The notes beneath the pieces are model-generated. The model saw only the letters and a list, made by a program, of their open reading frames with translations. It was not told the origin of the DNA and did no database searches. From Gemmatimonadaceae bacterium (GTDB lineage Bacteria > Gemmatimonadota > Gemmatimonadetes > Gemmatimonadales > Gemmatimonadaceae): a stretch of 64,000 nucleotides of DNA. A program made the translations under genes and the position numbers. This document shows positions 1,610-64,000 of this stretch, in pieces. The stretch's first letter is position 1; each line of letters opens with the position of its first letter. Location: the NCBI GenBank assembly GCA_036496605.1, contig DASXKV010000054.1:186001-250000 (forward strand), read 5' to 3'.

Positions 1610-3115
1610 ATGCGCCTAACTGTTGTACTTGTAGCCCTCTCGCTGCCATTAGCGCTTTCTAATGTGTCGGCCCAGCGCGCCGCGCCCGTCGACGTCGTGA
1701 TCGTCGGCGGACGCGTGCTCGACCCCGAGACCGGCCTCGACGCCATTCGCGCCGTCGGCATCAAGGCCGGGCGCATCGTGTCCGTCACCACGACCGTTCC
1801 CGCCGCGCGCGATACGGTCGATGCGAAAGGCCTCGTCGTCGCGCCCGGTTTCATCGACTTGCACTCTCACGGCCAGGATTCGATCAACTACAAGTTCATG
1901 GCGCACGACGGTGTAACAACGGCGCTCGAGCTGGAGCTCGGGACGTATCCCGTCGCGCCGTGGTACGCCGAGCGCGTCGGCAAGTCGCTCATCAACTTCG
2001 GAGTCTCCGCCAGCCATCCTGGAGCGCGGCGCGCGATGCTCGACCACGATTCGACGGCCGAAGGCGCGGACGTCATCGGCGCGACCGGCAACTTCGTGCA
2101 TTCCCCGATCGAGCGCTCACGCCTCCCCGAGCTCGACCGCCGTCTCGATGGCGCCCTCAGCGAAGGCGCGTTAGGCATCGGCATGGGAATCAACTATACG
2201 CCGGCGGCGACGCGCGAGGAGATTCTCGGCGCGTTCGGAGTCGCCGCGCGTCACCACGCGCCGATCTTCGTCCACCTTCGCTCGGCGGGACTGATCGAGA
2301 ACGCCGGCGGGATCGCGGGCGTCCAGGAGGTCATCGCCGACGCCGCGGCGACAGGCGCGCCGCTCCACGTCGTGCACGTCACGAGCATGGGCCTGAGCGC
2401 GACGCCCGCCCTGCTGCAACTCATCGATGGCGCCCGCGCGCGCGGGCTCGACGTCACGACGGAAGCGTATCCGTACACTGCCGGCGCGACGATGCTCCAG
2501 AGCGCGATCTTCGACCCCGGCTTCCAGGAGCGGATGGGGATCGACTACAGCAATATTCTCTGGCCCGCGACCGGCGAGCGCCTAACGGCCGAGACCTTCG
2601 CCAAGTATCGCCAGCAGGGCGGCCTCGCGGTGATCTTCATGATCCCAGACAGCGCCGCCGACCAGGCATATCGCGACCGCGACGTGATGGTCGCGAGCGA
2701 CGGCGGTTTCCAGATTCAGAATGGCCAGCCGATCGGCCACCCGCGCAGCGCGGGCACGCACGCGCGCATCCTCGGCCGCTTCGTGCGTGAGCGAAATGTC
2801 ATCTCGCTCATGGATGCGGTGCGGAAGATGACGCTGCTCCCTGCCAAGCGACTCGAGCACGTCGATCCGGAGATGAAGCACAAGGGCCGCCTGCAGGCCG
2901 GTGCAGACGCGGACATTGTCGTCTTCGATCCTGCAAGGGTGGTCGACCGCGCGACGTTCGAGAAGCCGGCGCAGTACTCGGACGGGATCATTGACGTACT
3001 GGTGAACGGGACGTTCGTCGTGCGCGGATCGAACCTCGTTCCAGGCGTCGCGCCGGGAAAACCGGCCAGGGGGCGTGTGGGCTCGTCACGCGTTGCCGGC
3101 GGCGGCGGACGCTAA
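1610..3115 (+). CDS. Secreted amidohydrolase, D-aminoacylase / N-acyl-D-amino-acid deacylase type
   Basis: The protein has 501 aa and a Sec signal peptide (residues 1-21, ending VSAQ). The metal-dependent amidohydrolase core begins with DVVIVGGRVLDP at 28-40, and the metal-binding HxH is in FIDLHSHGQD (His85, His87). Further ligands appear as FVHLRS and HVVHVTSMG, and a late ASDGG supplies the usual Asp. The C-terminal GRLQAGADADIVVFDP is the returning strand of the composite beta-sandwich domain. Members hydrolyse N-acyl-D-amino acids or related dipeptides in the periplasm; the substrate here is inferred. The coding region carries two GCCTAACG-type words (2169, 2580) and a near-copy at the start codon (CGCCTAACT). 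Confidence 0.85.
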   Translation: MRLTVVLVALSLPLALSNVSAQRAAPVDVVIVGGRVLDPETGLDAIRAVGIKAGRIVSVTTTVPAARDTVDAKGLVVAPGFIDLHSHGQDSINYKFMAHDGVTTALELELGTYPVAPWYAERVGKSLINFGVSASHPGARRAMLDHDSTAEGADVIGATGNFVHSPIERSRLPELDRRLDGALSEGALGIGMGINYTPAATREEILGAFGVAARHHAPIFVHLRSAGLIENAGGIAGVQEVIADAAATGAPLHVVHVTSMGLSATPALLQLIDGARARGLDVTTEAYPYTAGATMLQSAIFDPGFQERMGIDYSNILWPATGERLTAETFAKYRQQGGLAVIFMIPDSAADQAYRDRDVMVASDGGFQIQNGQPIGHPRSAGTHARILGRFVRERNVISLMDAVRKMTLLPAKRLEHVDPEMKHKGRLQAGADADIVVFDPARVVDRATFEKPAQYSDGIIDVLVNGTFVVRGSNLVPGVAPGKPARGRVGSSRVAGGGGR

Positions 3116-3227
3116 TTCCCGCGACGGCGCCCCGGCCGCTATTTCGGAAATGCTCAACAGTCATGAATAGCACGCGTGCTCCTCGTCACCGCCGAGAGCT
3201 CCCGTGCAGAATACATCAACACCATGA

Positions 3228-3271
3228 ACACGGACACGGCCGGACAAAGCCGGACACGGCCGTGTCCGTGT
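3228..3271. terminator. Perfect 14-bp stem hairpin between convergent genes
   Basis: Arms acacggacacggcc (3228-3241) and ggccgtgtccgtgt (3258-3271) are exactly complementary with a 16-nt loop and are followed by ctcagtctttt. The hairpin lies between the rightward amidohydrolase (stop 3115) and the leftward permease (stop 3364), so it most likely terminates one or both. The rest of 3116-3363 shows no gene. Confidence 0.6.
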
Positions 3272-3363: not shown

Positions 3364-6054
3364 TTACTCCGACCGAATCGCGATCAGCGGATCGATCCGC
3401 GTCGCCCGCCACGCAGGTACGAGACACGCCACGCCCGCGATGAGCATCAGGCTCGCGATCACGCCTGCGAGCACCAGCGGATCGCGCGGCGCCACGCCGA
3501 ACAAGATCGACGACAGCACACCCGTCGTCGCCAGTGAAAGCAAGACTCCCGCGCCCGTCCCGATCCAGGCGAGCTTCATCCCCTGCCCAACGACGAGCCG
3601 GAGCACGCTCGTTAGGCGCGCGCCGAGCGCGACCCGCAACCCGATCTCGCGCGTGCGCTGCGCCACCGAATACGACACGACGCCATAGACGCCGATACTC
3701 GCCAGCACCAACGCCAGCACGCCGAAGACGGCCGAGAACGCGGACCCGAGCCGCGTGAACAGGAACGCCGGCCCGTTGCGGAGGTGATCCTCCATCGTGC
3801 GCACGTCGAAGACCGGTGCGGTCGCGTCCAGACCGGTGACGATCGCGCGCACCGGCGCGGCAAGCGACGTCGGCTGCTGCGTCGTGTGCACGAGCAGCGT
3901 CATGTCCGAGCGATACACCTGACCAAAGTGCTGGAAGACGTACGGCCGCGGCGTCTCACCCGGCAGGAGGTCCTGCATCCCTCGAACGACGCCGACGATC
4001 TCGACGATGGAACCGTTTGCGCTATCCAAATGAAGCCGCTTTCCCACGGCCGGCTCGCCCGGCCACAGCGTCTTCGCGAGCGCGTCGTTCACGATCACGA
4101 CGCGCGGCGAATTCTCGTCGTCACGAGCGGCGAATGCGCGCCCGCTCAAGAACGGAATGCCCATCGCGGCGAAGTACTCGCTACTCACCACGTTGGTGAA
4201 ATAACTGAATCCGTTCGCTGGCACGTTCACACTCGATGCGATCGGAAACACCGTGGCGACGTCGAGGTTGTACCCGAAGGGGACGAACTCCGCGATCCCG
4301 GCGGATCGCACGCCGGGGACCGCCGTCACTCGCCTAACGAGCTCGTCGTAGAACTGGCGGCCGCTCGTGTTGTCGTGCGTCTGCGGGCGAAGCGCCGTGG
4401 ACATCATAAGTAAATGATCCGATCGGAATCCCAGGGTCATCCGGCTCGCATTGGCCGAGCTGCGCGCGAAGAGTCCAGCGGCGACGAGCACCACGACCGA
4501 CACGGCGATCTGACCGACGACGAGCATCGACCGCAATCGCTGCTGCGCCCCGAGCGGCGAGTTCCCTCCACTCGACTTGAGCAGGTCGTTGAGATTGCGT
4601 CTGCGCGCGGCCGCCGCGGGCGCGATTCCCGTAATGAGAGCGGCCGCCAATGTCGCGACCCCGCTGAACAGAATTACTCGCCAATCGAGCTCGACGCCCC
4701 AGCGCATCGGGATGTCGGTCGCCAGGTGAATGGAGTTTAGTCCGCGCACCGCGGCGTACGCCACCCCAACCGCGCCAACTCCGCCGACGAACGCGAGCAC
4801 GCAGCACTCGACCAGTATCTGGCGGACCAGCCGCCACTGACTCGCACCAATTGCAGCGCGAATCGCCAGCTCGCGACTCCTCACGACGACGCGTGCGAGC
4901 AGCAGACTCGCGACGTTTGCGCAGGCCACGAGCAAAACGAGAATCACCAACGTCATGAATACCGCCGCGAGTGCCGGCGTCAGGCTCGAGATCGCGATAC
5001 TCGGCCGCGAATAACGCTCGGGCACGGCGACGACGGTTACGTTCTTGTTCGTCGCTGGATACGCACGCTCGAGGCGACGCGCGTCGAGACGCAACGCTTC
5101 GCTTGCGCGACTCAGCGAGACACCATGGCGTAGGAGGGCGAACACGCTCAAGCCGATCGATGCACGGTTGTCTAGATCGACGGTCGCGGGCCAGACCTGG
5201 TTGATGCAGACGACGCCGTCGATATCGACGAGTGGGCGAATTCCGTGAAATGCCGGCGGCATCACGCCGATAACCGTCACTGGATGCTCGTTGACGCGAA
5301 CCACGCGGCCCACAACCGACGAGTCGCCGGCAAATCGCGCCTTCCACGCCTTGTACGTGAGCACGATCGTTGGATGCGACATGACGCCTTCGTCTTCACC
5401 GGCGAGGAAGGTTCGGCCGAGGTATGCCGGCAATCCGAGCACTCTGAAGTAGTTCGCCGTTGCCTCGTCGACCCACAGTCGCTCGGCGCCACGATCGGTG
5501 TTCAGCTCGATGATTCGCGTCGTGTAGATCGCGAGGTCGGCGAAGACCGCGGTGTCGGCGCGAAAGTCGCGAGCGTCCGCATATGAGAGATCGTGCGGCT
5601 GCGGGATGTCCTTGTCCGTTCGGCCGAGAACGACCAGCGCCGCGCCGTGGGCGCCGGGCAAGGGGCGAAACATGTATGTGTCGACGACGCTGTAGATCGC
5701 GCTCGTCACGCCGATGCCTAACGCGAATGTGAGACCGACGACGGCAACGAACCCCGGCGTCCGCGCCAGCGCGCGGCAGGCGACACGGACGTCTCGCGAC
5801 AGGTCCGCCGCAAAACGCAGGCGCTGCGCGACGCTGGCATGATGCTCGTCCATCACGCGCAGGGTGACGCGCGTCCGTTCCACATCGCCGAATTCCCGGA
5901 GCGCCTGCGCCCGCGCCGCCGCTCGCTCCATTCCAAATCTGCTCAACTCCTCGGTGCGTGCGTCGATATGAAAGGCGAGTTCGTCATCCACGTCGGCAGC
6001 GACGTTCGGACGCCAGAATCGCAGATACCGATACCACTTCGCACTATCGGGCAT
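3364..6054 (-). CDS. ADOP-family FtsX/MacB-like permease
   Basis: The likely product is 896 aa, starting at the ATG at 6054; the open frame reaches 6342, but that part overlaps padR and reads as non-protein-like sequence. Residues 15-75 form the charged prefix domain typical of ADOP proteins (DDELAFHIDARTEEL, ALREFGDVER). A membrane helix follows near 102-123, then a MacB periplasmic core domain, a central FtsX set with VACANVASLLLARVV, a second periplasmic domain, and a C-terminal FtsX set ending WRATRIDPLIAIRSE. This is the duplicated orphan permease architecture, which lacks its own ATPase gene nearby. It lies 8 bp downstream of padR in the same direction, so it is probably PadR-controlled. 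Substrate is unknown. Confidence 0.9.
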   Translation of the reverse strand: MPDSAKWYRYLRFWRPNVAADVDDELAFHIDARTEELSRFGMERAAARAQALREFGDVERTRVTLRVMDEHHASVAQRLRFAADLSRDVRVACRALARTPGFVAVVGLTFALGIGVTSAIYSVVDTYMFRPLPGAHGAALVVLGRTDKDIPQPHDLSYADARDFRADTAVFADLAIYTTRIIELNTDRGAERLWVDEATANYFRVLGLPAYLGRTFLAGEDEGVMSHPTIVLTYKAWKARFAGDSSVVGRVVRVNEHPVTVIGVMPPAFHGIRPLVDIDGVVCINQVWPATVDLDNRASIGLSVFALLRHGVSLSRASEALRLDARRLERAYPATNKNVTVVAVPERYSRPSIAISSLTPALAAVFMTLVILVLLVACANVASLLLARVVVRSRELAIRAAIGASQWRLVRQILVECCVLAFVGGVGAVGVAYAAVRGLNSIHLATDIPMRWGVELDWRVILFSGVATLAAALITGIAPAAAARRRNLNDLLKSSGGNSPLGAQQRLRSMLVVGQIAVSVVVLVAAGLFARSSANASRMTLGFRSDHLLMMSTALRPQTHDNTSGRQFYDELVRRVTAVPGVRSAGIAEFVPFGYNLDVATVFPIASSVNVPANGFSYFTNVVSSEYFAAMGIPFLSGRAFAARDDENSPRVVIVNDALAKTLWPGEPAVGKRLHLDSANGSIVEIVGVVRGMQDLLPGETPRPYVFQHFGQVYRSDMTLLVHTTQQPTSLAAPVRAIVTGLDATAPVFDVRTMEDHLRNGPAFLFTRLGSAFSAVFGVLALVLASIGVYGVVSYSVAQRTREIGLRVALGARLTSVLRLVVGQGMKLAWIGTGAGVLLSLATTGVLSSILFGVAPRDPLVLAGVIASLMLIAGVACLVPAWRATRIDPLIAIRSE

Positions 6055-6062
6055 GGCGCGCC

Positions 6063-8167: not shown

Positions 8168-8210
8168 CAAAGAGGCCTGCCAACAGACTCCCGTTAGGCA
8201 GGCCTCTTTG
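8168..8210 (-). terminator. 14-bp perfect hairpin with leftward U-tract, containing the 8-mer word
   Basis: Arms caaagaggcctgcc (8168-8181) and ggcaggcctctttg (8197-8210) pair perfectly. Read leftward, the stem is followed by ttgttttttc, an intrinsic terminator tail; rightward the tail is weak (tcgtgt). CGTTAGGC (8192-8199) spans the loop and right arm. No leftward gene now lies to its right, so it may be a relic or may serve as a bidirectional stop for the VOC gene. Confidence 0.7.
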
Positions 8211-8211: not shown

Positions 8212-8748
8212 CGTGTACGGATCCGGAAAGCGCGCGTTACGATCCGAGGGGGTGAGGTTCGATTCAACGTTCGGCGCGGCCCGCTCACTCTGCTCACGGG
8301 CGGCAGCGTATATCATTATGCCAGCGATGCGACGAACCTCACGAACACGTTAGGCAACCTGTCGACGCAAGCCCTCGTCTGGTCCACGCGCGCGAACGCA
8401 ACGTGGAAGCTGACGCCGATGATGGACGCGCAGTTCTTCGTCAACTATCGTGCGCCGTTCACGACGGAAAGCGGGTCGCAGAGCGCGTTCGTGTCGATGA
8501 ACGTTGCGTTCCGGCACAAGTTGTGGCGTGATCGCGGAAGCCTCACGGTGCGCATTGCCGATCCGTTCACCATGATGACCTTCGGTTCGCGTACTCAGAG
8601 CGCGAGCGTCGTGCAACTGAGCGAGCGAAGCTTCGGGATGCGCGGCGTATTCATCGCGTTCTCGCGGAACTTCGGGCAGGAGCTCAAGCTGCGGCCGAAG
8701 CCGCAGGACACGGAAGGTCAGGCCCAGGCACAGCCGGGCGTACCCTAG
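8212..8748 (+). pseudogene. C-terminal remnant of an outer-membrane beta-barrel (TonB receptor-like) protein
   Basis: In one frame, about 178 codons without a credible start read as alternating beta-strands: VRFNVRRGPLTLLTGGSVY, then ALVWSTRANATWKLTP, MDAQFFVNYRAPF, SGSQSAFVSMNVAFRHKLW, SLTVRIADPF, and GVFIAFSRNFGQEL near the end. This matches the last strands of outer-membrane barrel/TonB-dependent receptors. The plug and most of the barrel are missing, and the fragment begins directly at the hairpin ending at 8210. I call it a 5'-truncated relic. The C-terminus has a short charged/Gln-rich tail. Confidence 0.65.
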
Positions 8749-9080: not shown

Positions 9081-9575
9081 GTAGCGATCGCTACCAAATC
9101 GTGAGGCGTCCGCGACAAAATGCAGGGCGACCGGAACACTTCGTTAGGCGACGCGCGCAAAACTGAAGGCGACGTCGGCTCAGAGCGAGTGCACCGCGGC
9201 AATGTGTGACACGACCGCGGCCATGCAGGACTCGACCGCGGCAATGTATGACACGACCGCGACAATGTTGGTAGTCACCCTGATTGTTTTTGCAGGCGGC
9301 GGCCGCAGTTCACGACACGACCGTGACTGCACACGAGACGACCGTGACTGCACAGGACACGACCGTGGCTTCGCATGACACGACCGTGGCTTCGCATGAC
9401 ACGACCGCGGCTTCCTTCGACATGACCCTGACTTCACGCGACAGGACCGCGGCTTCCCACGACACGACCGTGGTTTCCCTCGACACGACCGTGGTTTCCC
9501 TCGACACGACCGTGACTTCACCCGGCACGACCGTGACTTCACCCGGCACGACCGCGACTTCACTAGACGCGACCG
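9003..9575. repeat. Phased 21-bp tandem repeat array, core GACCG
   Basis: The pentamer GACCG or a one-base variant recurs at 9003, 9024, 9045, then (same phase) 9129, 9150, 9171, 9192, 9213, 9234, 9255. After a 1-bp shift it recurs at 9319, 9340, 9361, 9382, 9403, 9424, 9445, 9466, 9487, 9508, 9529, 9550 and 9571. Left units resemble gcgaccggtccaacttcgaag; right units resemble gacacgaccgtggcttcgca. Because 21 is a multiple of 3, stop codons are avoided in several frames, producing long spurious reading frames on both strands. In the left part the units encode heptapeptides of the DRxN type, later interrupted by stops. Confidence 0.9.
9081..9094. repeat. 14-bp perfect palindrome gtagcgatcgctac
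   Basis: gtagcgatcgctac is identical to its reverse complement and sits immediately after the TAG that ends the sigma-like remnant, inside the gap of the 21-bp array. It contains the GCGATCGC octamer. No function can be assigned. Confidence 0.4.
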
Positions 9576-12180: not shown

Positions 12181-13557
12181 CTACGGTACTGGCAGTCCGC
12201 TCGGTACGGACGCCGGAATGAGTCCGGCGAGACTGCGCGCCGCCGGGTCGGTGAGTGACTCGAGGAACGCCACGAGCTGATTCAGCTCGACGTCGCTCAA
12301 GCCTAACGGCGCACGCAGCTGCGGCGAGGCGGAGGTGAGGATCGCCGTGATCGTTGCGTCGTCACCGTGGTACTGCGCACGGAAGCGTGGGTCGAGCTGT
12401 GACACGTCATACGTGTGCAGCGCTTGCTCGGCGTTGTTGTAATGTCGGACGACGGCGTCGAGCGTCGCGAACGCACCGTCGTGCATGTATGGCGGCGTGA
12501 GCTCGACGTTGCGGAGCGCGGGCACTCGGAAAAGGAACCGATTCGTCTGTGCGGGGAACTGCGGATCCTGACCGAGGTCGAGTGGCGCGTCCTTTCCGAC
12601 ACCTGGGCCGAGCTGCGGTACTGCTGCGGCCGCGAAGGTCTGGCCGCCGAGGAGCGGACCGAAGTGACAGGTCGAGCAGCGGGCCTTCCCGAAGAAGAGC
12701 AACGCGCCATGCTTCGCATCGGTCGTGAGCCCGTCATCGTCGCGCGCGAGGTAGCGATCGAAGGGGGAGTTCGTGAAGGTGAATGCCGCCGTCTCGAACG
12801 CCGCGATCGCGTCCGCCGCATGCTGGAAACCTAACGACGATGCCGATACACCCGGGAATGCGGCGTTGAACTTGGCAACGTACCCGTTGATCGCGAGCAC
12901 GCGCTGCATCACTCCCGTCCAGATTCCCGCGAAGTCCGCGCTGTCGTATGCCGCGAGCTCGTTCGCATTCCCGGCTGCGTCGCGGTCGCCGATCTCACCG
13001 CGCATCTCGTTCCGGTTCGTCACGGGGAACATCGCCTGCGCGGCGAGCACGCTCGTTAGGCCCGCGGGCAATGCTGCACCCGCGGGCGTCTTGAACACAG
13101 CGTTCTGGATTCCGCCGAGGTCGGACACTCGCCCGTCCCAGAAGAGATAGAAGGCGCCCAGACCGGTGTTGAGCAGCGTCGGCGCGTTCCGCGGCGTGAA
13201 TTGCCGCCCCGCGCCGAGTTGGCGCGTCACACCGCTCCCGGTGCCGCCCGTGCCAATCGAGAGCGAGAGGACGTCGGCGGTGTGGTTGAGCGGACTGTGG
13301 CACGTTGCGCAGGCGACGTCGCGGTTGCCGCTCAGCACCTTGTCGAAGAAGAGCGATTTTCCGAGGTCGACGAGCGCGGGATCCGGCGCATTCACGGCGC
13401 CGATTGGTACCGCGCCCCATTGCTGGAGCGTTCCCCGCAGCTGAGCATCGAGGGTTGGCGTGGGCGGCGGCGAAGCCACACCAGTTCGGCTCGATTCGCC
13501 CCCGCACGCGGCGACTGCACACAGGAGCAGGCCAGCGATTGAGTATTTGCGCATCAT
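12181..13557 (-). CDS. Di-haem cytochrome c peroxidase (MauG/CcpA-type) lipoprotein
   Basis: The protein has 458 aa from ATG 13557. The signal ends in a lipobox-like VAAC (Cys18). Two haem-binding motifs are present, CATCH (83-87) and CSTCH (294-298), with PALRNVELTPPYMHDG typical of bacterial di-haem peroxidases and a late PYMHDGAF distal-site segment. It probably reduces peroxide or oxidises a protein partner in the periplasm. Its ATG overlaps the stop of the upstream membrane protein in ATGA (13554-13557), so the two are translationally coupled and likely act together. The open frame extends far upstream of 13557, but that part overlaps the neighbour. Confidence 0.9.
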   Translation of the reverse strand: MMRKYSIAGLLLCAVAACGGESSRTGVASPPPTPTLDAQLRGTLQQWGAVPIGAVNAPDPALVDLGKSLFFDKVLSGNRDVACATCHSPLNHTADVLSLSIGTGGTGSGVTRQLGAGRQFTPRNAPTLLNTGLGAFYLFWDGRVSDLGGIQNAVFKTPAGAALPAGLTSVLAAQAMFPVTNRNEMRGEIGDRDAAGNANELAAYDSADFAGIWTGVMQRVLAINGYVAKFNAAFPGVSASSLGFQHAADAIAAFETAAFTFTNSPFDRYLARDDDGLTTDAKHGALLFFGKARCSTCHFGPLLGGQTFAAAAVPQLGPGVGKDAPLDLGQDPQFPAQTNRFLFRVPALRNVELTPPYMHDGAFATLDAVVRHYNNAEQALHTYDVSQLDPRFRAQYHGDDATITAILTSASPQLRAPLGLSDVELNQLVAFLESLTDPAARSLAGLIPASVPSGLPVP

Positions 13558-15576: not shown

Positions 15577-15727
15577 CGAGATCCGCAGCTGAGTGATCCG
15601 TTTCATCCGCGCGATCCGTGTCTCCTTGGCCTCCTCAGGGAGAAGCTCCTCGAGGGTTCTTGCGCACGGCCGCGGAGATGGAGATGATTGCGCGAAGCGG
15701 AACCTTTTCCCTATCAGTGAATCGTCC

Positions 15728-52144: not shown

Positions 52145-54997
52145 TCAGCGGCGACTCTCTCGCTGCAGCTGGAAGCTTTTGAGCTTACTCAGGCCATCGC
52201 GCGCCTTACGGACCGATACGAGATCGGTGTCGGCTTTCGGCCATTGCGCGAGGAATCGCTCGTACAAGCTGCGGACACGTGCCTGATCGCCGATGCGTTC
52301 GTAGCTGTCGGCGGCGCTCACCGGCGCGATCAATCCGTACTGCTCGGCCTCGTAGCCGTACCAGCCACCAGTCGCGCCCGCGAGGGACTCGTACAAGCGT
52401 GCGGCGCCGTGGAGATCGCCGCTCTGGCCGACGGCACGCGCGAGGGATTCCCGGATGTACTCGGTGGAGTCCGTGGCGTAAGCGAGTCGAAGGACGCTCA
52501 CGGCGCTGTCGGGGTGACCCTGCGCGAGCGCGACCTCGCCGCTCAGAACCTGCACATTCGAGCGATCCCCGGGGTTGTCAGCGCGGGCGCGTCGGCGGAG
52601 CGTGTCGAGCACCTCGACAGCGAGCGGCAGCTGCCCGTCTCGCACGAGTGCCTTGCCGAGATAGACGAGGAACCGCGGCTCGAAGTAGGCCTTCCTGAAC
52701 AGCCCATACGCCGAGCGGATCTCCGCGCTCGCCGAGTCGCGCCAGCCTTTCTCTTGCTCGGCCGACGCGAGGAAGAGGCGATTGCGCGCCTCCGTCAGCT
52801 CGCGATTCGGCGCCTCACTGAGCAGCGTCGCCTGGCGAAAGCGATCGATCGCTTCGGCGTAGTGCCCCTGCGACATCGCGAGGAGGCCTAACGAGCGATT
52901 ACCGCGCGCCTGCTGATCGGGATCGCCGACGAGCATCGAGTCGTACACGGCTCGCGCTTCGTCGTGCTTGCCGGCCAGCACGAGCGTCTCGCCATACTCG
53001 TGATTCAAGTTCTCGAGCGTGAGCAGGTTTGGCTGCAGCCGGAAGGCACGCTTGTAGTTCACGATGGCGGAGTCGTATGCGGCGAGTTCCTTGTGTGCCG
53101 TGGCGAGATTGATGTAATCGCCGGCGCTGCTGGAATCGCGCGACAGCTGGGTGCGCAAAGCGGCAACGGCCTCCTGCGCGTGCCCGAGACGCATGTAGTC
53201 GTAGCCGATCTTCCCCCACGCGCTGCGGTCACCGGGGTACACCGCCAGCAGCGCACGACGGAGCTCGATTGCGTGCAAGCGATTTCCTCTCCAGCTCTCC
53301 GCGGCGGCCCGCACCGTTAGGCGCTCTCGATCGGTGAGGCGGTCGAGCAGACGCAGTGCATGGTCAAAGTGCGCGTCGCCGTTGGGACGGTCGTTGGTCC
53401 AGTAATACGCGCCGCCGAGCTCTGCGTGCGCGAGGGCGAAGTCGGAGTCGATCGCGACGGCTTCCTCATAGAGCTCGACGGCGGGCTTTCGCTGTCCTGC
53501 TTTCCAGGCGGCGAGGCCGTCGGCGTATTTATGAAGGGCTTCGAGCGAGGCGGTCGTCGCCTGCGGCAGGGGAAGGTCGTGCTTCGCAATGGCACCCGCG
53601 GATTCGCCGATGTCGCGACGCAGCCGTCGCACCAGATCGTCGACGGCGGCGATCACGTCCGACCGCCGATTGGCGAGGCGCGTCTCGGCGGCGAGCGCGC
53701 GGCCACTCGACGCGTCGACGATCTGTGCCGTGAGCATGTAGCTGCTGTCGACGCGGTCGATGGCCGCGACGACCACCGAATTGATGCCCTCGCGCTGCGC
53801 CACTTCGCGAGCCGACGTCTCGTCGAGATGCATTGTTGTTGCTGCCCCGTGCGGGCGGCCCATGCGCGCGAGGGTTTGCTCAATCCGTGCGCGGGGGAAC
53901 ACGCTCACATAGGCAGACTGCTGAAGACCCGTCGCCAGCGCCGCATCGAGCGCACGATCGAAGATCGAATCGCGCGTGCGGTTGTCGAAGTCCGCGGCAA
54001 GAATCCATGCTCGTTCGGCGTCGCGGCCGCGATTCGTGTACATCCGAGAGAGGATGAGCGCGAGCAGCACGATCAAGCCGGCGGCAAATCCGGCGACTCG
54101 GTAGGGCTTCGTCTTCTGTGTAACGAGGCGGAACGGCGTCGCGCGGCGTGGCGCCGCCGCGGCTTCGACTGTCGGCGCCGGGGCTGACGCGAACGTCCGC
54201 GGAGTAGCTGGCGCGACTGGCGCCGTCGTCGGCGGGACGACGCGGGGCTCGGTCGAACGTCGAGGGGCGTCCGTCTTCACCGGCTGTCGACGCAGCTTGT
54301 CGGCGAGTGCGGCGACCGCGGGATTGGGCTCGGCTTCGAGATCGTCGCGAACGAGCGTGTGATAGATCTCGGCATGGCGCAACGCGCTGGCGCGGTCACC
54401 GGTCGCGGCAAGCTCCGTCATGAGCGAGAGGACGACTCGCGTCTTCCGCGGCTCCATGACGGCGAGCCGTTGCCAGCGTTGCACCGCGCCCGCGTGGTCG
54501 CCCTTCCCGGCCGCCTCCGTGGCGAGGGATTCGAGCGCGAATTCCACCTCTCTCGTTAGGCGCGCACGCTCCTCGTCGACCCAGCGATCGAATCCCGGCG
54601 CGCCCGTGATGAACACGCCGTCGAGGAACGGCCCCCTATAGAGCTCCGCCGCGCCGATGCGATCGCCGCGTGCCAGCGCCGCCTGGAAGTCTTCGACGTC
54701 GCTCGTTATTGCAGCCGGATTGAGTGATGGTTCTTCGCGACCGATGACGAGTGCCTCAGCCCCGAGATCTTTCTTGAGCGAGTAGAGAGTCTGATCGAGG
54801 GCATGGCGCGCGCGGTCGGTGTCGCTCTCTGGCCAGAACAGTGCGAGGAGCTTGTCGCGCGGCACGCCACGGGGCGCACTCACGGCGAGAACAGCGAGCA
54901 GGGCCAAGCGCCGCCGTGCCGATGTTGCGGCAGACGGCGACGCTCTACCGTCGCTTTGCTCGATCGAAAGGCCACCGAGCGTCCGAAGCCTCAACAC
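52145..54997 (-). CDS. Membrane-anchored BTAD/TPR transcriptional regulator
   Basis: The protein has 950 aa. Residues 1-95 form an OmpR-like winged helix (MLRLRTLGGLSIEQ, RRRLALLAVLAVSAPRGVPR, DRARHALDQTLYSLKKDLG), 96-245 a BTAD helical domain. Then a Pro/Ala-rich linker and one membrane helix (301-320; VAGFAAGLIVLLALILSRMY). After it come a FlgO/penicillin-binding-like sensor segment (AWILAADFDNRTRDSIFDRA, VNSVVVAAIDRVDSSYMLTA) and TPR repeats to the end. The layout resembles CadC/ToxR tethered activators with an extracytoplasmic sensor. It is likely to control the ADOP permease downstream. Confidence 0.85.
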   Translation of the reverse strand: MLRLRTLGGLSIEQSDGRASPSAATSARRRLALLAVLAVSAPRGVPRDKLLALFWPESDTDRARHALDQTLYSLKKDLGAEALVIGREEPSLNPAAITSDVEDFQAALARGDRIGAAELYRGPFLDGVFITGAPGFDRWVDEERARLTREVEFALESLATEAAGKGDHAGAVQRWQRLAVMEPRKTRVVLSLMTELAATGDRASALRHAEIYHTLVRDDLEAEPNPAVAALADKLRRQPVKTDAPRRSTEPRVVPPTTAPVAPATPRTFASAPAPTVEAAAAPRRATPFRLVTQKTKPYRVAGFAAGLIVLLALILSRMYTNRGRDAERAWILAADFDNRTRDSIFDRALDAALATGLQQSAYVSVFPRARIEQTLARMGRPHGAATTMHLDETSAREVAQREGINSVVVAAIDRVDSSYMLTAQIVDASSGRALAAETRLANRRSDVIAAVDDLVRRLRRDIGESAGAIAKHDLPLPQATTASLEALHKYADGLAAWKAGQRKPAVELYEEAVAIDSDFALAHAELGGAYYWTNDRPNGDAHFDHALRLLDRLTDRERLTVRAAAESWRGNRLHAIELRRALLAVYPGDRSAWGKIGYDYMRLGHAQEAVAALRTQLSRDSSSAGDYINLATAHKELAAYDSAIVNYKRAFRLQPNLLTLENLNHEYGETLVLAGKHDEARAVYDSMLVGDPDQQARGNRSLGLLAMSQGHYAEAIDRFRQATLLSEAPNRELTEARNRLFLASAEQEKGWRDSASAEIRSAYGLFRKAYFEPRFLVYLGKALVRDGQLPLAVEVLDTLRRRARADNPGDRSNVQVLSGEVALAQGHPDSAVSVLRLAYATDSTEYIRESLARAVGQSGDLHGAARLYESLAGATGGWYGYEAEQYGLIAPVSAADSYERIGDQARVRSLYERFLAQWPKADTDLVSVRKARDGLSKLKSFQLQRESRR

Positions 54998-55848: not shown

Positions 55849-56220
55849 CTATCTGCGCGCGACGTAGGTCGCGAGGAGGCCGACGATCGCGGGAATGACC
55901 GCCATGGCACCCTGACCCTGGATCAGTGTCGTCACCACGGCGCCGATCATGATAATCACCAAACCCCGCGCGGCGACCGGCGTTAGGCGCTCCTGAATGT
56001 GAAACAGGCCGGGCAGAACCACGCCGAGGGCACCCAAGGTCTCGCAGATGCCGATGAACTTGATGAAGCCGCCGGGAAGGTGGGACTGTTCGGCGAGCAC
56101 GGCGGCAGGTAGCACCAGCTTCATTCCACCCGCAAAAAGAAAGATCGCGGCCAAAAGGCCCTGGGCGATCCACATGCGGGTGGTGGACCGGTCGCGCTGG
56201 CTCAGACTGATCGAGGTCAT
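55849..56220 (-). CDS. DoxX family membrane protein
   Basis: The product is 123 aa from ATG 56220; the open frame reaches 56406 but the earlier part reads as non-coding. Four membrane helices: WIAQGLLAAIFLFAGGMKLV, FIKFIGICETLGALGVVLPG, LTPVAARGLVIIMIGAVVTT, and VIPAIVGLLATYVARR, the DoxX/DoxD pattern. Such proteins are quinone-linked or stress-associated. It lies 76 bp upstream of the F420-type reductase gene in the same direction, so both may serve redox balance. Confidence 0.85.
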   Translation of the reverse strand: MTSISLSQRDRSTTRMWIAQGLLAAIFLFAGGMKLVLPAAVLAEQSHLPGGFIKFIGICETLGALGVVLPGLFHIQERLTPVAARGLVIIMIGAVVTTLIQGQGAMAVIPAIVGLLATYVARR

Positions 56221-56574: not shown

Positions 56575-59500
56575 CTAACGCTGATCCGCCAATCCGCTGA
56601 CCTCCTTCTTGACGGCGGCCAGCTCGGCGCGGCTCTCAATCAATGCCTGCCGGTTCATCGCCGTGGGCGGCGCGAAGCTTCCCTGCTGCGCGCCCTGACC
56701 GTTGAACGCCCGCGCCACGGCACCGAGCTTGGCACGCGTTGCGTTCCGTCCAACCGTTAGGCGCCGCTCCAGAGCGACGTATCGCGCCGAGTCCGCACCC
56801 GTCGCCGACGAGCGCCGCGAGCGCAGATCGGCGACGACCCGCTCGACCTCGACCTGCGCCGCCTGGATATCCAGCAAGAACGACTCACGCGTGCGCTGCT
56901 GCGCCAACGTATAAGTACTCATCGGATCCGCGCGCACCTCGAGAGGACGCGAGCTCGTGTCGCCATCGACATCGAGCGTGACAGTAAATGCTCCCGGGGC
57001 GACGAATGGCCCGCGCACGCCGATGTCGTGCATCGGCACCGGCAATTGTTGCTGCGGCTCGACGCGCCGGCCGCCACCTTCACCGCCGCCCTCTTCAGCG
57101 ACCACACCCGCACCGACGGTCGATGGCGGCGGCTCATGCCGGAGATCCCACGTCACGCGGTGAATGACGCCGGCCGTCGTGCTGCCCAACAGCACACGAA
57201 CGACTTTCCCATTCGCGCGGCGAATCGTGAGGCGGACCTTCTGCGCCGGACGCGAGAGATAGTAGGTGAGCGCCGCGCCGTCGGCGGGATTCTCCGCGGC
57301 GTAAAAGCCTTGCGCCATGTTCGAGACGTCGTCCCAATACTGCATGAGCGTCGCGCGGCGCGTTGGAAAGAGATGGGACCCTCGCGCCGCGATCATGTCC
57401 GACCACTCGCCGATCGGGGACGCGTCGTCGAGGAGCCAGAGGCTGCGGCCGTGCGTGGCGAGGAGCAGGTCCTTCGTCCGCGGATGGATCAGAATGTCGT
57501 CGTAGATCGTCGTCGGCAGGTTGCTCGTTAGGCGTGTCCAGTGCGCGCCCGTATCGAGCGTCACGAAGAGGAAGCGCTCCGTGCCCGCGAAGAGGACGCT
57601 GGGCTTCCCCGGGTACTCGGCGATGCTGCGTACCGACGCGTCGCCGGGAAGGCCGGCGCTGATCGATTTCCACGTCTTGCCGAAGTCCGTCGTGCGGACG
57701 ATGTACGGCGCGAAGTCCCCACTGCGATGCGCGTCGAAGGCAACGTAGGCCGTGGCACGCGCGGCCGACGAGGCAACAATGCGTCCGACGTAGGTACCAT
57801 TCGCAATTCCGGTCGACGTGCTGATCGCGGTGCTCAACTCGTGCCACGTCGTTCCACCGTCGGTCGAGAGCTGCACATTACCGTCATCCGTACCGATCCA
57901 TAGAACGTGGCCGTCGAGCGGTGACTCAGCGATCGCGGTGAGCTCGCTGTAGCTCGATTCGCCGTCGTTGCGCGAGATCTTGATCTCGCGATCCTTGATA
58001 CCCATCAAGGTGAGTGTGTCGCGATTGATATTGCGCGTGAGATCGGCGGTGCGTGTCCACGTCGTGCCGCGGTCGCGCGAGACGAAGAGACGGTTCGCGC
58101 CGATGTACACCGTGCCCGGCGTGTGCGTCGAGGCGACGAGCGGAGAATTCCAGTCCCACCGATACGCCGAATCGCCCTTTGGCGCTTGCGGCTTGATGTC
58201 GAGACGATCGCCCGTCTCGGGATCGACGCGTTGGACGTTGCCGTTGGTCGACGACGTGTAAAGCGTCCGATAGCCGCCCTTATCCACCTGCTGGCCCGTG
58301 CCGTCGCTCAAACCGATCTGCCTCCAGTCCTGATTGAGGATGCCTAACCAGTGGCGCGTCGCACTCGGCCCCATCCACGAGTGGTTGTCCTGCAAACCGC
58401 CGTATATCCAATACGGATCGCGATCGTCGACGGCAATATGATAGAACTGCCCGATCGGGATGTTGTTTATGCGAATGTACGTCATCCCGAGATCCCAGCT
58501 TTCGTTCAATCCGCCGTCACCGCCGACCAGAATGTGACGCGAGTCGCGTGGATCGATCCACATCGTGTGGTGATCGGTCTTGAGACCGATGTCGTATGCC
58601 GGCGACGTCGGTTGGCCCTCGAATGTGACGCCGCCATCCTCACTCTTCACGATGACGGTGCCAAGCAGCCAGATGCGCTTGTCGTTCGTGGGATCGATGA
58701 ATGGCGCGCTGTAATACATCGGACGTGGATTGACGCGGCTCGTGCGGCGCCACGTCAGGCCTGCGTCGTCGGAGCGATAGATGCCGCCTTCGGTCGGATG
58801 CTCGACGGTCGCGACGAGGGCCTTCGGATTCGACGCGCCGATCGCCAGGCCGATGCGCCCCTTGTCACCGGTGGGAATTCCCACCTCGAGTTTTTTCCAG
58901 GTGGCGCCGCCGTCGCTCGTTTTGTAGATCGCGCTGCCCGCGCCACCGCCGTTGAAGCCGAAGGCGCTGCGCAGGCGTTGGTACGTCGCGGCGTAGAGCG
59001 TATTGGGATCGCGCGGATCCATCGCGATATCCGTTGCACCCGTTAGGCTATCGACGTAGAGAATCCTGTTCCAGCTCTTGCCGCCGTCGGTTGTCTTGAA
59101 CACGCCACGCTCGGTGGTCGCTTTCCAGAGATTACCGACGGCGGCGACATACGCGACGCTGCAGTCCATTGGGTTCACGCGCACGCGGCCGATACTGGCC
59201 GTACTCGTCAGACCGACTTGCGTCCAGGTGCGGCCAGCGTCTGTCGACCGGTACATGCCGCCGCCCCACGACGAGCTCTGTCGATTGTTCTGCTCTCCCG
59301 TTCCCGCCCAGATCACACGCGGGTCGGCCTCACAGATCGCGAGATCGCCGAAGGTATTGTCGGGCAGACCGTCGAAGATCGGCGTCCACAACGTCCCCTT
59401 ATTCGTCGTCTTCCAGATGCCGCCCGAGGCACTCGCGACGTAGATCGTGGACGGATCCTTCGGGTCGACTTCGATGTCGTGAATGCGACCGCCGGTCGCG

Positions 59501-60187: not shown

Positions 60188-60727
60188 CTAGAAAAGGGAG
60201 AGGGCCTCGGCGCGGGCCTCCAGGTCGAGCAATTTCTTCTTACGCCACACGCCGCCGCCGTAGCCGACGAGGTCTCCGGTCGAGCCGATCACGCGATGAC
60301 AGGGGATGATGATCGCGATGCGGTTATCGCCATTCGCCCGCGCCACGGCGCGCACCGCGTTAGGCTGTCCGATCGATTCGGCGAGACGCGCGTAGCTCGT
60401 CGTCGTCCCGCAGGGGATCCGCAGCAGCGCCGACCAGACCCGCGTCTGGAAGGGCGTGCCCGGCACGTCGAGGGGCAGGCTGAACTCCCGTCGGTCGCCG
60501 TGGAAGTATTCGTCGAGTTGGGCTCGCAGCGTCGCGAAGATGGGGGACTCGCCGGGCGCGAGCTCACAGTCGTGGGCGCGTCGCACGCGGTCGAGCTGCG
60601 TGTCGATCATCCGCCGGTGAGGAAACTCGAACAGGAGGAGATGCGAGTCCGACGCCGCGGCAATCATCGGACCGATCGGCGTCTCGATTTCGGCGGTGAC
60701 GGCGTGAAGTCGCGTGGTCGGGGTCAT
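60188..60727 (-). CDS. ogt: Methylated-DNA--protein-cysteine methyltransferase
   Basis: The protein has 179 aa. The active-site motif is IIIPCHRVIG with Cys143, followed by GDLVGYGGGVWRKKKLLDLE; the HTH part has TPFQTRVWSALLRIPCGTTT, SYARLAESIGQPNAVRAVAR, ANGDNRIA. It reverses O6-alkylguanine damage by transferring the alkyl group to its own cysteine. The gene strand has tataattcgga immediately before ATG; a TATAAT so close to the start would give a nearly leaderless transcript. A CGTTAGGC word lies inside (60358). Confidence 0.93.
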   Translation of the reverse strand: MTPTTRLHAVTAEIETPIGPMIAAASDSHLLLFEFPHRRMIDTQLDRVRRAHDCELAPGESPIFATLRAQLDEYFHGDRREFSLPLDVPGTPFQTRVWSALLRIPCGTTTSYARLAESIGQPNAVRAVARANGDNRIAIIIPCHRVIGSTGDLVGYGGGVWRKKKLLDLEARAEALSLF

Positions 60728-60900: not shown

Positions 60901-60914
60901 GCGGAGAATCATTC

Positions 60915-62006
60915 ATGCGCATTCATCTGACCGTCCTGCTTTTGCTCGCTGCCGTGTCGCTATCCGCGCAGCAAGTTCCCGAAATCCCCTTCGACGCGAG
61001 CGTGGACTTTCTCAAGCTCCCCGCCGGGATGAATTTCGGCGAGGTGGCCGGCGTCGCAATCGATGCCCGGCGTCACCTGTACGTGTTCAGCCGAACCGGC
61101 TCGCGCAGCACCGTCCACGGCGCCAGCGCGGCGCAGCTCTTCGAGTTCGGACCCGACGGCGCATTCATTCGCGAGATCGGCAAGGACCTATATGGTTTTG
61201 CGTTTGCTCACACCGTGCGTGTCGACGCGAACGGCAATCTGTGGGCGACGGACGAAGGCACGAACATGATCGTCGAGTTCAATCCGGCGGGACGTGTGCT
61301 GATGGTCCTCGGCCGTCGCGCGGAGGCGGTCGAAGCACCGCCAGCGCAGCCATTGCCGGGGACACAGGCGCGGCCCGGCTGGGGCACCTTCAATCGCCCG
61401 ACGGACGTCACCTGGGATCGTGAAGGCAATGTCTTTGTCGCCGATGGTTACAACAATTCGCGCGTCGTAAAGATCGACAAGCACGGCCGCTGGGTGAAAA
61501 CCTGGGGCGAGCGCGGCACGAGCCCCGGTCAGTTCAACATCCTGCATTCGATTGCGAGCGACATTGCGGGCAACATCTATGTCGCCGATCGGACCAACCG
61601 ACGCATTCAGGTGTTCGATCACGACGGTGCCTTCCTCCGCCAATTCACCATCGACGTCCCCTACGACAAGGAGCCTAACGTGATGGTCGGCGCAATGCCC
61701 GGCGCCAGCAGCAATCCGCTTTCGGTTTCCGGCGCGCCGTGGGCGATCTGTATCACGCCGGGTCCGAATCAGGTGCTGTTCAGCGCTGACGCCGTGCCGG
61801 GCCGGATTTACAAGCTCTCATTGGACGGCAAGGTCCTCGGCGTACTCGGCGACGCGGGAAAAGAGCCGAAGCAGTTTGGCTGGATTCACGAGATCGCCTG
61901 CCCTTCCGACAACGAGCTGTACGTGGCCGAGCTTCTGAATTGGCGCGTGCAGCGCATAGCGCTCAACCCTCGACGCACCCAGCACGCTTCGATATCTAAA
62001 CATTAG
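60915..62006 (+). CDS. Secreted NHL-repeat beta-propeller protein
   Basis: The product is 363 aa from ATG 60915, with ggag 8-11 nt upstream; the frame is open from 60813 but that part is repeat. The signal peptide ends SLSAQQ. NHL-type blades: TVRVDANGNLWATDEGTNMI, VTWDREGNVFVADGYNNSRV, VKIDKHGRWVKTWGERGTSP, SDIAGNIYVADRTNRRIQVF, DHDGAFLRQF, then IHEIACPSDNELYVAELLNW. Six-blade peptidyl-alpha-hydroxyglycine lyase-like propellers look like this, but no catalytic set is assured. Function unknown. Confidence 0.85.
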   Translation: MRIHLTVLLLLAAVSLSAQQVPEIPFDASVDFLKLPAGMNFGEVAGVAIDARRHLYVFSRTGSRSTVHGASAAQLFEFGPDGAFIREIGKDLYGFAFAHTVRVDANGNLWATDEGTNMIVEFNPAGRVLMVLGRRAEAVEAPPAQPLPGTQARPGWGTFNRPTDVTWDREGNVFVADGYNNSRVVKIDKHGRWVKTWGERGTSPGQFNILHSIASDIAGNIYVADRTNRRIQVFDHDGAFLRQFTIDVPYDKEPNVMVGAMPGASSNPLSVSGAPWAICITPGPNQVLFSADAVPGRIYKLSLDGKVLGVLGDAGKEPKQFGWIHEIACPSDNELYVAELLNWRVQRIALNPRRTQHASISKH

Positions 62007-62032
62007 TGCTCGTTCACGTCGGTGTCTCGACC

Positions 62033-64000
62033 TCAGCCTCCGGCGCGAAGAAGCTGTGCGGGGTCGACTCGCAGCGCACGACGCGAGGGCAGCCAGCACG
62101 AAGCACTGGCTGCGAGCAGCAGCACGCCGGCCACCAGCGAGTACGTCGCGGCGTCAGTCGGCTGGACGTGAAATAGGAGATTCGTCACGAGGCGGCTTGC
62201 GAGGAGGGCCACGCCGCACCCGACTACGACACCGATGACGACGATCGCGAGGCCCTGTCGCATAACGAGCCTGAGCACGCGGGGGGCATCGGCGCCTAAC
62301 GCCATCCGAACCGCAATCTCTGGTAAGCGTTGCGTCACCGAGTAGCCGATGACGCCGGCGAGCCCGGTCGCGGTGAGCAACAGCGCGAAGGCGGCGAACG
62401 CGGCGATGAGGGTCGTCGTTAGGCGCGGCTCGGCGAGCTGAGCACCCCGAATCTCCTCGAGCGTTTGTACATTCGAAATCGGCGTTTGGGCATCGACATC
62501 ACGCACGGCTGCCCGAAGCGCCGCGAGAATCGCCGGCCGGGGCCCCAACGTGCGCAGGAAGATGCGAACGTTCCCCGTCGGGCTGCCGAGCATCGGTGCG
62601 TAGATCTCGTCGGTGATGTCCGCGTCCAATCGACGCTGCCGCACGTCGCCGACGACGCCGATCACCGTGAGCCAGTGTTTCCCGCTATCGGGCGAGATGC
62701 GCGTCCCGATCGGGTCGTGGCCACCCCAATACGTCTGCACGAGTCGGGCGCCCAGGAGGACGGGCGGCGCGAGCGTGTCGCGGTCCGCGAGCGTGAAATC
62801 CCTCCCTCGCAGCAACGGTATGCCGACGGTACGGAAGTATCCCGGGCTGATCGCGATCGCCTCGGCGTGAGGGAGCTGCACGCCACTGGAGGGGGCGATG
62901 CCCTCGATTTCGAAGCTGAGCTGCGTTTGTTGGGCCCCGTTGAGAGGCAGCGTGCTCGCCATCGCGACGGACGAGACGCTCGGCAGTCCGTCCACGCGCC
63001 GCAACAACGCTTCGTCCACCGCGCTCACCTTCGCCCCAGTGTTGTACCTGGAGAAATTGAACGACAGTTGTGCCGTCAGCACGTTGTGCACGTCGATTCC
63101 GGCGTCGACGCGCTCGAGCTCGAAGAGACTGCGGCCAATGAGGCCCGCGCCGACAAGCATGACGAACGCGATCGCCACCTGGCCGACGACGAGCATATTC
63201 CTCATCCTGAGATCACCACGCGATCCCACGGAGGCAGTGTTGCCCTGACGAAGCGCGGCGGCGAAGCGGTTTTGTCGAAGGACCCGGAGGAAGGGCACCG
63301 CGGCCACCGCGAGGGCAATTACGAGTGACAGCGCGAGGGCAAACGCGAGTGCCGTCGCATCGATGTGAATCTCGTCCGCGCGTGGCGTGAGTCGCGTCGC
63401 TATCGAACGCAGCATGCCGATGCCACTCGTCGCGAGCGCCACACCGAGTCCGCCGCCGGCTAGGGCAAGGACCAGGCTCTCGAAGCTCAGCTGCCGATAG
63501 AGCCGTGCTTGATCCGCGCCGAGCGCGACGCGGAGCGCCATTTCGCGTGCGCGTCTCAGCTGCCGTGCGAGACTCAGATTAGCGACGTTGGCCATCGCCG
63601 CCAGGAGAAGAAAACCTGCCGTCGCAAAGAGGAGGTAAAGAATTGGCTTCGCCCGATTCGTCATCTCGTCGCGCGCGTCGATCAACGCGAAGTGCAGCCG
63701 CTGCTGGGCAGGATAGTCCGCTGGATAGGCGCCGTGGAACCGCGCGCTGAGGGCCGCGACCTCGGCTTGCGCGCGCTCGAGCGTCATACCCGGTTTCAGC
63801 ACCGCGAACGCGCCCACCATCCGATGATCGCGCGTATTCATCATCATTGGTGACGAGCGAAACGGACAGGCACCGGCAGGCATCCAGATGTCGTTCTCGT
63901 TAGGATAACTCGGGAGGGGCGGCAGGACGCCGACGACGCGGTGTATCTTATCGTTCATCGTGAACGTCGCGCCGACAATCGAGGGATCGCCGAAGAACTG
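62033..64000 (-). CDS. ADOP-family FtsX/MacB-like permease, N-terminus off window
   Basis: The frame is open from the stop at 62033 to the right edge; residues before the internal ATG 63958 (QFFGDPSIVGATFT) are clearly part of a MacB periplasmic domain, so the gene starts beyond 64000. It shows LLFATAGFLLLAAMANVANL, SLARQLRRAREMALRVALGA, FALLLTATGLAGVIGYSVTQ, RLPEIAVRMALGADAPRVLR and ends LPSRRALRVDPAQLLRAGG. This is the third permease of this family in the window. Two GCCTAACG words lie at 62294 and 62417. Confidence 0.9.
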   Translation of the reverse strand, partial: QFFGDPSIVGATFTMNDKIHRVVGVLPPLPSYPNENDIWMPAGACPFRSSPMMMNTRDHRMVGAFAVLKPGMTLERAQAEVAALSARFHGAYPADYPAQQRLHFALIDARDEMTNRAKPILYLLFATAGFLLLAAMANVANLSLARQLRRAREMALRVALGADQARLYRQLSFESLVLALAGGGLGVALATSGIGMLRSIATRLTPRADEIHIDATALAFALALSLVIALAVAAVPFLRVLRQNRFAAALRQGNTASVGSRGDLRMRNMLVVGQVAIAFVMLVGAGLIGRSLFELERVDAGIDVHNVLTAQLSFNFSRYNTGAKVSAVDEALLRRVDGLPSVSSVAMASTLPLNGAQQTQLSFEIEGIAPSSGVQLPHAEAIAISPGYFRTVGIPLLRGRDFTLADRDTLAPPVLLGARLVQTYWGGHDPIGTRISPDSGKHWLTVIGVVGDVRQRRLDADITDEIYAPMLGSPTGNVRIFLRTLGPRPAILAALRAAVRDVDAQTPISNVQTLEEIRGAQLAEPRLTTTLIAAFAAFALLLTATGLAGVIGYSVTQRLPEIAVRMALGADAPRVLRLVMRQGLAIVVIGVVVGCGVALLASRLVTNLLFHVQPTDAATYSLVAGVLLLAASASCWLPSRRALRVDPAQLLRAGG

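Follow-up and report, generated by a model that had tools for sequence, protein, structure and literature searches.

The octamer GCCTAACG is present in a real and genome-wide excess in a Gemmatimonadaceae bacterium (genome G000; 5,968,761 bases in 70 contigs), where it is about 50-fold more frequent than expected. We analysed it in a 64-kb stretch of this genome (contig DASXKV010000054.1, positions 186,001 to 250,000 of the forward strand), which is called the window below, in larger samples of the same genome, and in related genomes. The word is strong, confined to one order, spread over whole genomes, and has been lost or gained repeatedly. Of the systems known to us, those that its pattern resembles most are the uptake sequences found in Neisseriaceae and Pasteurellaceae, and on this analogy GCCTAACG is probably a DNA uptake sequence (DUS) of these Gemmatimonadota. 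A literature search that left out subscription journals and preprints returned no earlier report of an uptake word in this phylum, in agreement with the preliminary description of the window, whose author knew of none; and the available part of PMC10581226 contains no occurrence of the terms competence, natural transformation, integron or pilus.

Excess of GCCTAACG and its placement in genes

Exactly 50 copies of GCCTAACG lie in the window, the first starting at position 2169 and the last ending at 62424, and on recounting 27 of them are on the plus strand and 23 on the minus strand. The preliminary description, which had put them at about 50, balanced between strands, against two to three expected by a hand estimate, was thus borne out in number, balance and strength of the excess, as 100 dinucleotide shuffles gave a mean of 1.31 and a maximum of 5 copies. 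Under an order-2 model with the sites included, no other 8-mer of the window is as strongly over-represented as GCCTAACG (50 copies against 1.07). A maximal-order model gives 49.0 of the 50 copies, but since high-order models rebuild the 8-mer from its own sub-words, the full excess cannot show in them.

The whole genome harbors 3,411 copies (1,750 on the plus and 1,661 on the minus strand), or about one per 1.75 kb, and the density reaches one per 1.15 kb in the genome G200. In a 460-kb sample of G000 that includes the window we counted 280 copies. With the sites masked, an order-2 model expects 5.3 and an order-3 model 3.9; an order-4 model with masked sites, which still sees partial words, expects 15.7. 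As a control, the word read backwards occurs 197 times on the plus and 211 times on the minus strand of G000, near the 28.6 per 460 kb that an order-2 model expects for it. The fold excess is about 50 in both G000 and G200, and 116 in G080. Hence the genome-wide frequency, for which a value near expectation had been named beforehand as refuting, lies about 50-fold above the order-2 and order-3 models.

We examined the placement of the word in 512 kb of G000 with 386 genes predicted by our own simple gene caller. The copies fall 271 times in coding DNA, 30 times between genes and 8 times on gene boundaries, where the coding fraction of the DNA is 0.863. There is no clear preference for a gene strand (124 coding copies are sense and 147 antisense). 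All 271 are in the four stop-free frames, because a copy in either of the remaining two would create an in-frame TAA or TAG, so that the earlier statement of copies in every frame has to be narrowed to four of six. The unusual codons that it pointed out are confirmed, since 96 of the 252 TTA, 74 of the 393 CTA and 51 of the 367 AGG codons lie inside GCCTAACG, TTA making up about 1.7% of the leucine codons. Among the 1,077 positions whose amino acids permit the word, 271 are filled by it, although some of these residues may themselves have been altered by the word.

The flanks of GCCTAACG are nearly uninformative, which rules out a longer conserved repeat unit. C or T is preferred immediately 5' of the word, T is avoided immediately 3' of it in G000, and in G200, 39 of 85 copies have A as the second base 3'. 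Very close pairs are scarce. Pairs less than 200 bases apart make up 4.0% in G000 against 10.7% for control words of similar frequency (none of 19 controls was as low) and 6.2% in G080 against 13.4% (1 of 82 controls as low), and pairs less than 100 bases apart are likewise rare in G000 (none of 19).

Some near-miss words are in excess too, namely ACCTAACG and GCATAACG in G000 (7- to 15-fold) and GCCTAACA and GCCCAACG in G200, G080 and G244, while GGCTAACG, GTCTAACG and GCTTAACG are not in excess in G000. Individual variants stand out strongly, for example with 42 copies against 2.9 expected in G000 and 25 against 0.5 in G080. Such a selective and lineage-specific excess is expected of a protein with drifting specificity. 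Part of the excess of GCCCAACG may represent a mutational intermediate, since in one frame it reads TTG, a synonymous step to TTA.

Distribution in Gemmatimonadota and the rpoB comparison

We surveyed 298 genomes drawn from the phylum, using rounded genome sizes and calling a genome enriched when it holds at least 45 copies per Mb. Under this criterion 20 genomes are enriched. All belong to the same order as G000, 12 of them to its own family (f1), seven to a second family (f2) and one to a third (f3); the remaining genomes have at most about 25 copies per Mb, and no enriched genome was found outside this order in the sample. The excess is weaker in the eight enriched f2 and f3 genomes than in f1. 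Of the 179 genomes given by a search of family f1, 26 are enriched, with 72 to about 970 copies per Mb; they fall in 11 of 35 genera, and none of the others exceeds about 19 per Mb. Genera of f1 are uniform in this respect with one exception, G229 in genus g24. This genome, which is 88% complete and of higher G+C in the sample, has 3 copies, and the other five g24 genomes have 1,586 to 3,754; it represents either a very recent complete loss of the word or a misplaced genome. One f3 genus is mixed as well, with 168 copies in G186 and 11 in G260. A quick RpoB tree was made for 49 genomes, of which 19 are enriched. The enrichment label needs 9 changes on it, compared with 15.3 for shuffled labels, and at least 7 of the 9 are forced by well supported branches, indicating many losses, or gains, of the word.

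Since rpoB is conserved, it largely avoids the problem of amino acids altered by the word. In the 12 enriched f1 genomes of the survey, GCCTAACG occupies 29 of the 128 permissible rpoB positions, ranging from 6 of 11 in G200 to none of 11 in G257, while none of the 38 permissible positions is filled in the unenriched G229, G144 and G159. These copies sit at synonymous positions, mostly as NCG TTA GGC, where relatives use CTC or CTG. At alignment column 4720, for example, GCG TTA GGC stands in six enriched genomes, which represent five genera, and the other genomes encode the same Ala-Leu-Gly with CTC, CTG, CTT or TTG. The single rpoB copy in the unenriched G020 (column 1882) was taken for a chance occurrence. 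The 12 genomes share 42 pairs of positions against a mean of 23.8 for random placement, and only 65 of 20,000 permutations gave as many as 42. This sharing is compatible with inheritance, shared ancestry and favoured positions being indistinguishable here; it speaks, short of a full test against other 8-mers, against the refuting outcome named in the preliminary description, namely that the word vanishes in orthologues like any other 8-mer. Turnover is also seen inside one genus, where G029 and G156 have 2 rpoB copies each and G257 has none. Taken together over 17 enriched genomes, the regions around rpoB contain 51 copies against 59.6 expected at the density of each genome, so this core gene region is not spared.

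Beyond Gemmatimonadota, the 74 rpoB loci of other phyla (1.38 Mb) among the best 80 loci from named genomes contain 4 copies against 17.2 expected. The other six of these 80 are from Gemmatimonadota, none clearly enriched, with one copy in one of the six. The RpoB proteins of the 80 loci that are most identical to that of G000 (78-81%) come from five MAGs designated Gemmatimonadaceae or Gemmatimonadetes. A named carrier does exist, as G080 is Gemmatirosa kalamazoonensis, an enriched member of f1; 20 kb of its contig C3 is 100% identical to plasmid NZ_CP007129.1. Samples of two Gemmatirosa megaplasmids contain 12 copies per 20 kb, much as the chromosome does.

A few local arrangements of the word deserve record. 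Two abutting head-to-head copies form a 16-base palindrome in a genome of the host genus (G304:C3:8364-8379). A small Gemmatirosa contig (L035; G080:C1, 20,952 bases, of which 20,000 were read) is internally repeated at intervals of about 15 kb, as seen from the GCCTAACG pairs 1112/16109, 3990/18987 and 4803/19800, and shares sequence with the Gemmatirosa chromosome start (L036). Its inverted GCCTAACG pairs include one 66 bases long around a hairpin, present twice through the repeat, and one 101 bases long. In L036, the first Gemmatirosa sample, the nonamer AGATAGGAC is strongly over-represented (region 5161-5244), singly at 5161 and 5372 on the plus strand and as a tandem run at 5218-5244 on the minus strand.

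A putative DNA uptake sequence and its alternatives

We infer from these patterns that GCCTAACG functions in DNA uptake. The DNA-binding part of a competence pilus, or another surface protein, would prefer DNA bearing the word, which would be imported through the type IV pilus and ComEA/ComEC and recombined into the chromosome by DprA and RecA. Alleles carrying the word would then be copied into recipients more often than alleles free of it, so that over time it would accumulate at many sites where the protein sequence tolerates it; lineages in which the receptor disappears or changes would lose it again. Both the putative receptor and the multiplication of the word by biased uptake belong to this model.

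To our knowledge, self-specific uptake words occur only in Neisseriaceae, Pasteurellaceae and their relatives. Like the DUS of Neisseriaceae, GCCTAACG is a short asymmetric word on both strands in hundreds to thousands of copies, with lineage-specific tolerance of near misses and with competence genes and type IV pili present. It differs from them in having only 8 bases, in lying in genes in proportion to coding DNA and in belonging to another phylum, and its role in uptake is predicted from sequence. The uptake signal sequence (USS) of Pasteurellaceae has a core of 9 bases with flanking motifs; GCCTAACG is similar to it in density, asymmetry, placement in genes and the scarcity of its very close pairs, but differs in that its flanks carry little signal. 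For comparison, the accessible part of PMC3630211 puts the DUS of N. meningitidis and N. gonorrhoeae at about 1,900 for each genome, and that of PMC12616744 still calls the Pasteurellaceae receptor unknown in 2025, a FimT/GspH-like minor pilin being predicted.

We searched 55 genomes of the order (20 enriched and 35 unenriched) for competence genes. ComEC is present in 51 (all except G257, G026, G170 and G168), an HHH_3/ComEA-type domain in all 55 (54 over the cut-off), and DprA over the cut-off in 49. Type IV pilin signatures were found in all 11 genomes searched for them, in answer to the earlier suggestion to look for competence pilins, and G000 has ComEC, HHH_3, DprA and the pilin signatures. 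As these genes are equally common in unenriched genomes, they permit the uptake model but do not prove it.

A number of results weigh against GCCTAACG being an uptake sequence. First, the presence of competence genes does not discriminate enriched from unenriched genomes (ComEC in 18 of 20 against 33 of 35, DprA in 18 of 20 against 31 of 35). Second, two families of FimT/GspH-like minor pilins, followed over the 55 genomes as candidate receptors, were set aside since neither tracks the word, and no ComP-like receptor, as in Neisseriaceae, emerged from them. The candidates came from 65 pilins in fetched regions of five enriched genomes, a part of all signature hits. The first family scores above 100 bits in 15 of the 20 enriched and 17 of the 35 unenriched genomes, being absent from G000 and G080; the second comes near full score only in its two source genomes, followed by the unenriched G159 and G170. 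Pfam GspH is over the cut-off in only 2 of the 5 proteins used and below it in 3, so the name FimT-like is a loose one. Among the three explanations offered in the preliminary description (uptake, a recombination or nucleoid protein, methylation), uptake is the one that fits best, even though neither the competence genes nor the two receptor families tested are linked to enrichment.

Third, Neisseriaceae have dialect uptake words, whereas no dialect word stands out in samples of 87-127 kb from each of four unenriched relatives; the best-scoring words of G144 look like pieces of an integron array. Fourth, GCCTAACG is missing from rpoB in the seven aligned enriched f2 and f3 genomes, whose rpoB regions contain 4 copies against 10.5 expected at genome densities; the case for these two families is made by copy counts only. 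Fifth, word-free gaps do not mark foreign DNA, judging from the one gap fully examined, the longest of the sample (13.8 kb, G000:C1:58451-72251), which holds smc, DAHP synthase, lolA, an S41 peptidase, RF-1 and other housekeeping genes; nor are codon-atypical genes poorer in the word (0.62 per kb, compared with 0.62 and 0.58). Sixth, the overall spacing is ordinary, 11 of 19 controls in G000 and 9 of 82 in G080 having as low a coefficient of variation, and 12 of 82 controls have as few pairs below 100 bases in G080. In the G000 sample no copies are less than 76 bases apart, so terminator-like inverted pairs are absent from it. Finally, the accessible part of PMC1939737 reports a graded drive for known uptake words, which is not clear here, because the summed single-mismatch excess (1.36 in G000, 0.98 in G080 and 1.94 in G200) lies inside the range of permuted controls (0.52 to 2.40).

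The main alternative, though in our judgement an unlikely one, is a system like that of the cyanobacterial HIP1 (GCGATCGC), in which an orphan DNA methyltransferase would read a core such as CCTAAC, and methylation-biased mismatch repair would create and keep the sites with no uptake involved; such an origin has reportedly been proposed for HIP1 by Elhai. HIP1 is likewise a highly iterated 8-mer, which part of its phylum lacks and which is tolerant at its end positions. The accessible part of PMC4390886 gives a comparable density (300-2,700 per Mb, with exceptional members of the phylum having few copies or almost none) and deviations concentrated at the first and last base. In G000, changes of the first base (42 copies against 2.9 expected, 12 against 2.8 and 14 against 3.3) and of the last (15 against 1.9, 11 against 3.1 and 7 against 1.7) are tolerated similarly, and the failure of competence genes to predict the word also favours this view. 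However, HIP words are palindromes, and HIP1 is linked to known methyltransferases, while GCCTAACG is not its own reverse complement and has no known methyltransferase, although no search aimed at one was made. In G080 only the 3' end is tolerant, and CCTAAC without the flanking G is at expectation (3 copies against about 2.3). Moreover, the 8-mer is identical across three families, which would be more constant than expected of methyltransferase specificities.

A site for recombination or chromosome organisation, either Chi-like for a nuclease of the RecBCD, AddAB or AdnAB type or bound by a nucleoid or segregation protein, appears quite improbable to us. Chi sites are asymmetric 8-mers in excess as well, and GCCTAACG is found throughout both the chromosome and the plasmids; but the excess is larger than any known to us for Chi, and no strand preference is seen, 134 of 248 copies in 21 Gemmatirosa chromosome samples being on the G-rich strand, although this strand test is a poor one because the GC skew of the samples is weak. 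Presence and absence inside one family would also be odd for an essential chromosome function.

The word coincides with an integron element. Seven of its bases, GCCTAAC, form what we take to be the canonical R'' box of integron attC sites (RYYYAAC, or GTTRRRY on the other strand). The box is present in only 128 of the 32,896 strand-collapsed octamers, so the match is unlikely to arise by chance, bearing in mind that it was noticed after the fact. Cassette-like arrays in two relatives even hold the full 8-mer: in the unenriched G138 (L049, G138:C5:9000-26000) a single strand carries all 17 copies, 13 of which have GTTAGGC in the 160 bases after them, and in G114, also unenriched (L050, G114:C2:1-13000), 11 of 12 are on one strand, 10 of the 11 being followed in this way; judged by eye, both arrays consist of attC sites. 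Among the matches listed, there are further unenriched genomes in which some of the rare copies form one-strand runs. It is conceivable, but very doubtful, that a competence receptor of Gemmatimonadales reads the attC core, so that cassettes would carry a built-in uptake tag which biased uptake copied over those genomes that kept the receptor.

That the word is itself derived from integrons, spread as the core box by the integrase or left as attC relics, seems most improbable to us despite the attC-like setting in G138. An integron integrase is over the cut-off in 33 of the 55 genomes. It scores fully in 12 of 12 enriched against 15 of 20 unenriched f1 genomes, but the figures over the cut-off are 1 of 8 against 5 of 15 in f2 and f3 and 13 of 20 against 20 of 35 overall, and we rejected the integrase as the cause for want of association over the 55 genomes. 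The dispersed copies are single boxes without attC flanks or a folded site, on both strands and inside genes in every open frame. In 40 kb around two G000 integrase loci we saw no attC-like site with perfect pairing; the small Gemmatirosa contig, scanned as a third locus, has a few perfectly paired boxes. Flanks, frames and the absence of paired boxes at the two G000 loci rule out dispersed attC sites. Lastly, the idea that the word is a side effect of how codons are used, of a repeat family or of base composition, which the location of most copies in genes might suggest, has next to no chance of being right and is ruled out by the shuffles, the masked models, the frames and the rpoB comparison, given the use of rare codons on both strands and in four frames, the hardly conserved flanks, the near absence of the word at the same rpoB codons of relatives encoding the same residues, and its deficit in the rpoB loci of other phyla.

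Sites in the window and implications

The genes of the window include TonB/SusD-like, S9 peptidase and MacB/FtsX genes, a set in keeping with the affiliation of G000, and the copies of GCCTAACG among them are listed in Table 1. A second repeat of G000, the heptamer GGGGCTA, occurs singly or in short tandem runs and, unlike GCCTAACG, is intergenic; it is found in the window at 23501 (plus strand) and 6478 (minus strand) and in other samples at L010:15599-15648 and L014:1143-1157. In the 460-kb sample, 47 of the 51 copies of AGGGGCTA, which belongs to this repeat, are in non-coding DNA.

Table 1. Copies of GCCTAACG in the window (positions counted from its first base)
Element	Position	Strand	Remark
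GCCTAACG	2169..2176	-	exact match
GCCTAACG	2580..2587	+	exact match
GCCTAACG	3610..3617	-	exact match
GCCTAACG	4332..4339	+	exact match
GCCTAACG	5716..5723	+	exact match
GCCTAACG	8192..8199	-	exact match
GCCTAACG	8348..8355	-	exact match
GCCTAACG	9142..9149	-	exact match
GCCTAACG	12301..12308	+	exact match
GCCTAACG	13054..13061	-	exact match
GCCTAACG	15571..15578	+	exact match
GCCTAACG	16476..16483	+	exact match
GCCTAACG	16779..16786	+	exact match
GCCTAACG	17538..17545	+	exact match
GCCTAACG	17908..17915	-	exact match
GCCTAACG	18795..18802	+	exact match
GCCTAACG	19952..19959	+	exact match
GCCTAACG	23373..23380	+	exact match
GCCTAACG	25491..25498	+	exact match
GCCTAACG	29432..29439	+	exact match
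GCCTAACG	30905..30912	+	exact match
GCCTAACG	31490..31497	-	exact match
GCCTAACG	31983..31990	-	exact match
GCCTAACG	34847..34854	+	exact match
GCCTAACG	35832..35839	-	exact match
GCCTAACG	36126..36133	+	exact match
GCCTAACG	36593..36600	-	exact match
GCCTAACG	37346..37353	+	exact match
GCCTAACG	37757..37764	+	exact match
GCCTAACG	39923..39930	-	exact match
GCCTAACG	41808..41815	+	exact match
GCCTAACG	42295..42302	+	exact match
GCCTAACG	44512..44519	-	exact match
GCCTAACG	44937..44944	+	exact match
GCCTAACG	45417..45424	+	exact match
GCCTAACG	49847..49854	+	exact match
GCCTAACG	50275..50282	-	exact match
GCCTAACG	50663..50670	-	exact match
GCCTAACG	51047..51054	+	exact match
GCCTAACG	52886..52893	+	exact match
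GCCTAACG	53315..53322	-	exact match
GCCTAACG	54554..54561	-	exact match
GCCTAACG	55981..55988	-	exact match
GCCTAACG	56755..56762	-	exact match
GCCTAACG	57526..57533	-	exact match
GCCTAACG	59041..59048	-	exact match
GCCTAACG	60358..60365	-	exact match
GCCTAACG	61673..61680	+	exact match
GCCTAACG	62294..62301	+	exact match; faces copy at 62417, 123 bases away
GCCTAACG	62417..62424	-	exact match

If GCCTAACG is indeed an uptake sequence, it would be the third independent case of an uptake word, and one in another phylum. Related species with and without the word, together with a named and sequenced carrier, Gemmatirosa kalamazoonensis, would then allow comparative tests, and whether selection or drive maintains such words, what the receptor is, and how the words are gained and lost would become open to comparison. 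The word would also be genomic evidence that natural transformation is frequent in a soil phylum which is common yet poorly known, and its inclusion in donor DNA may be of practical help for the genetics of these bacteria.

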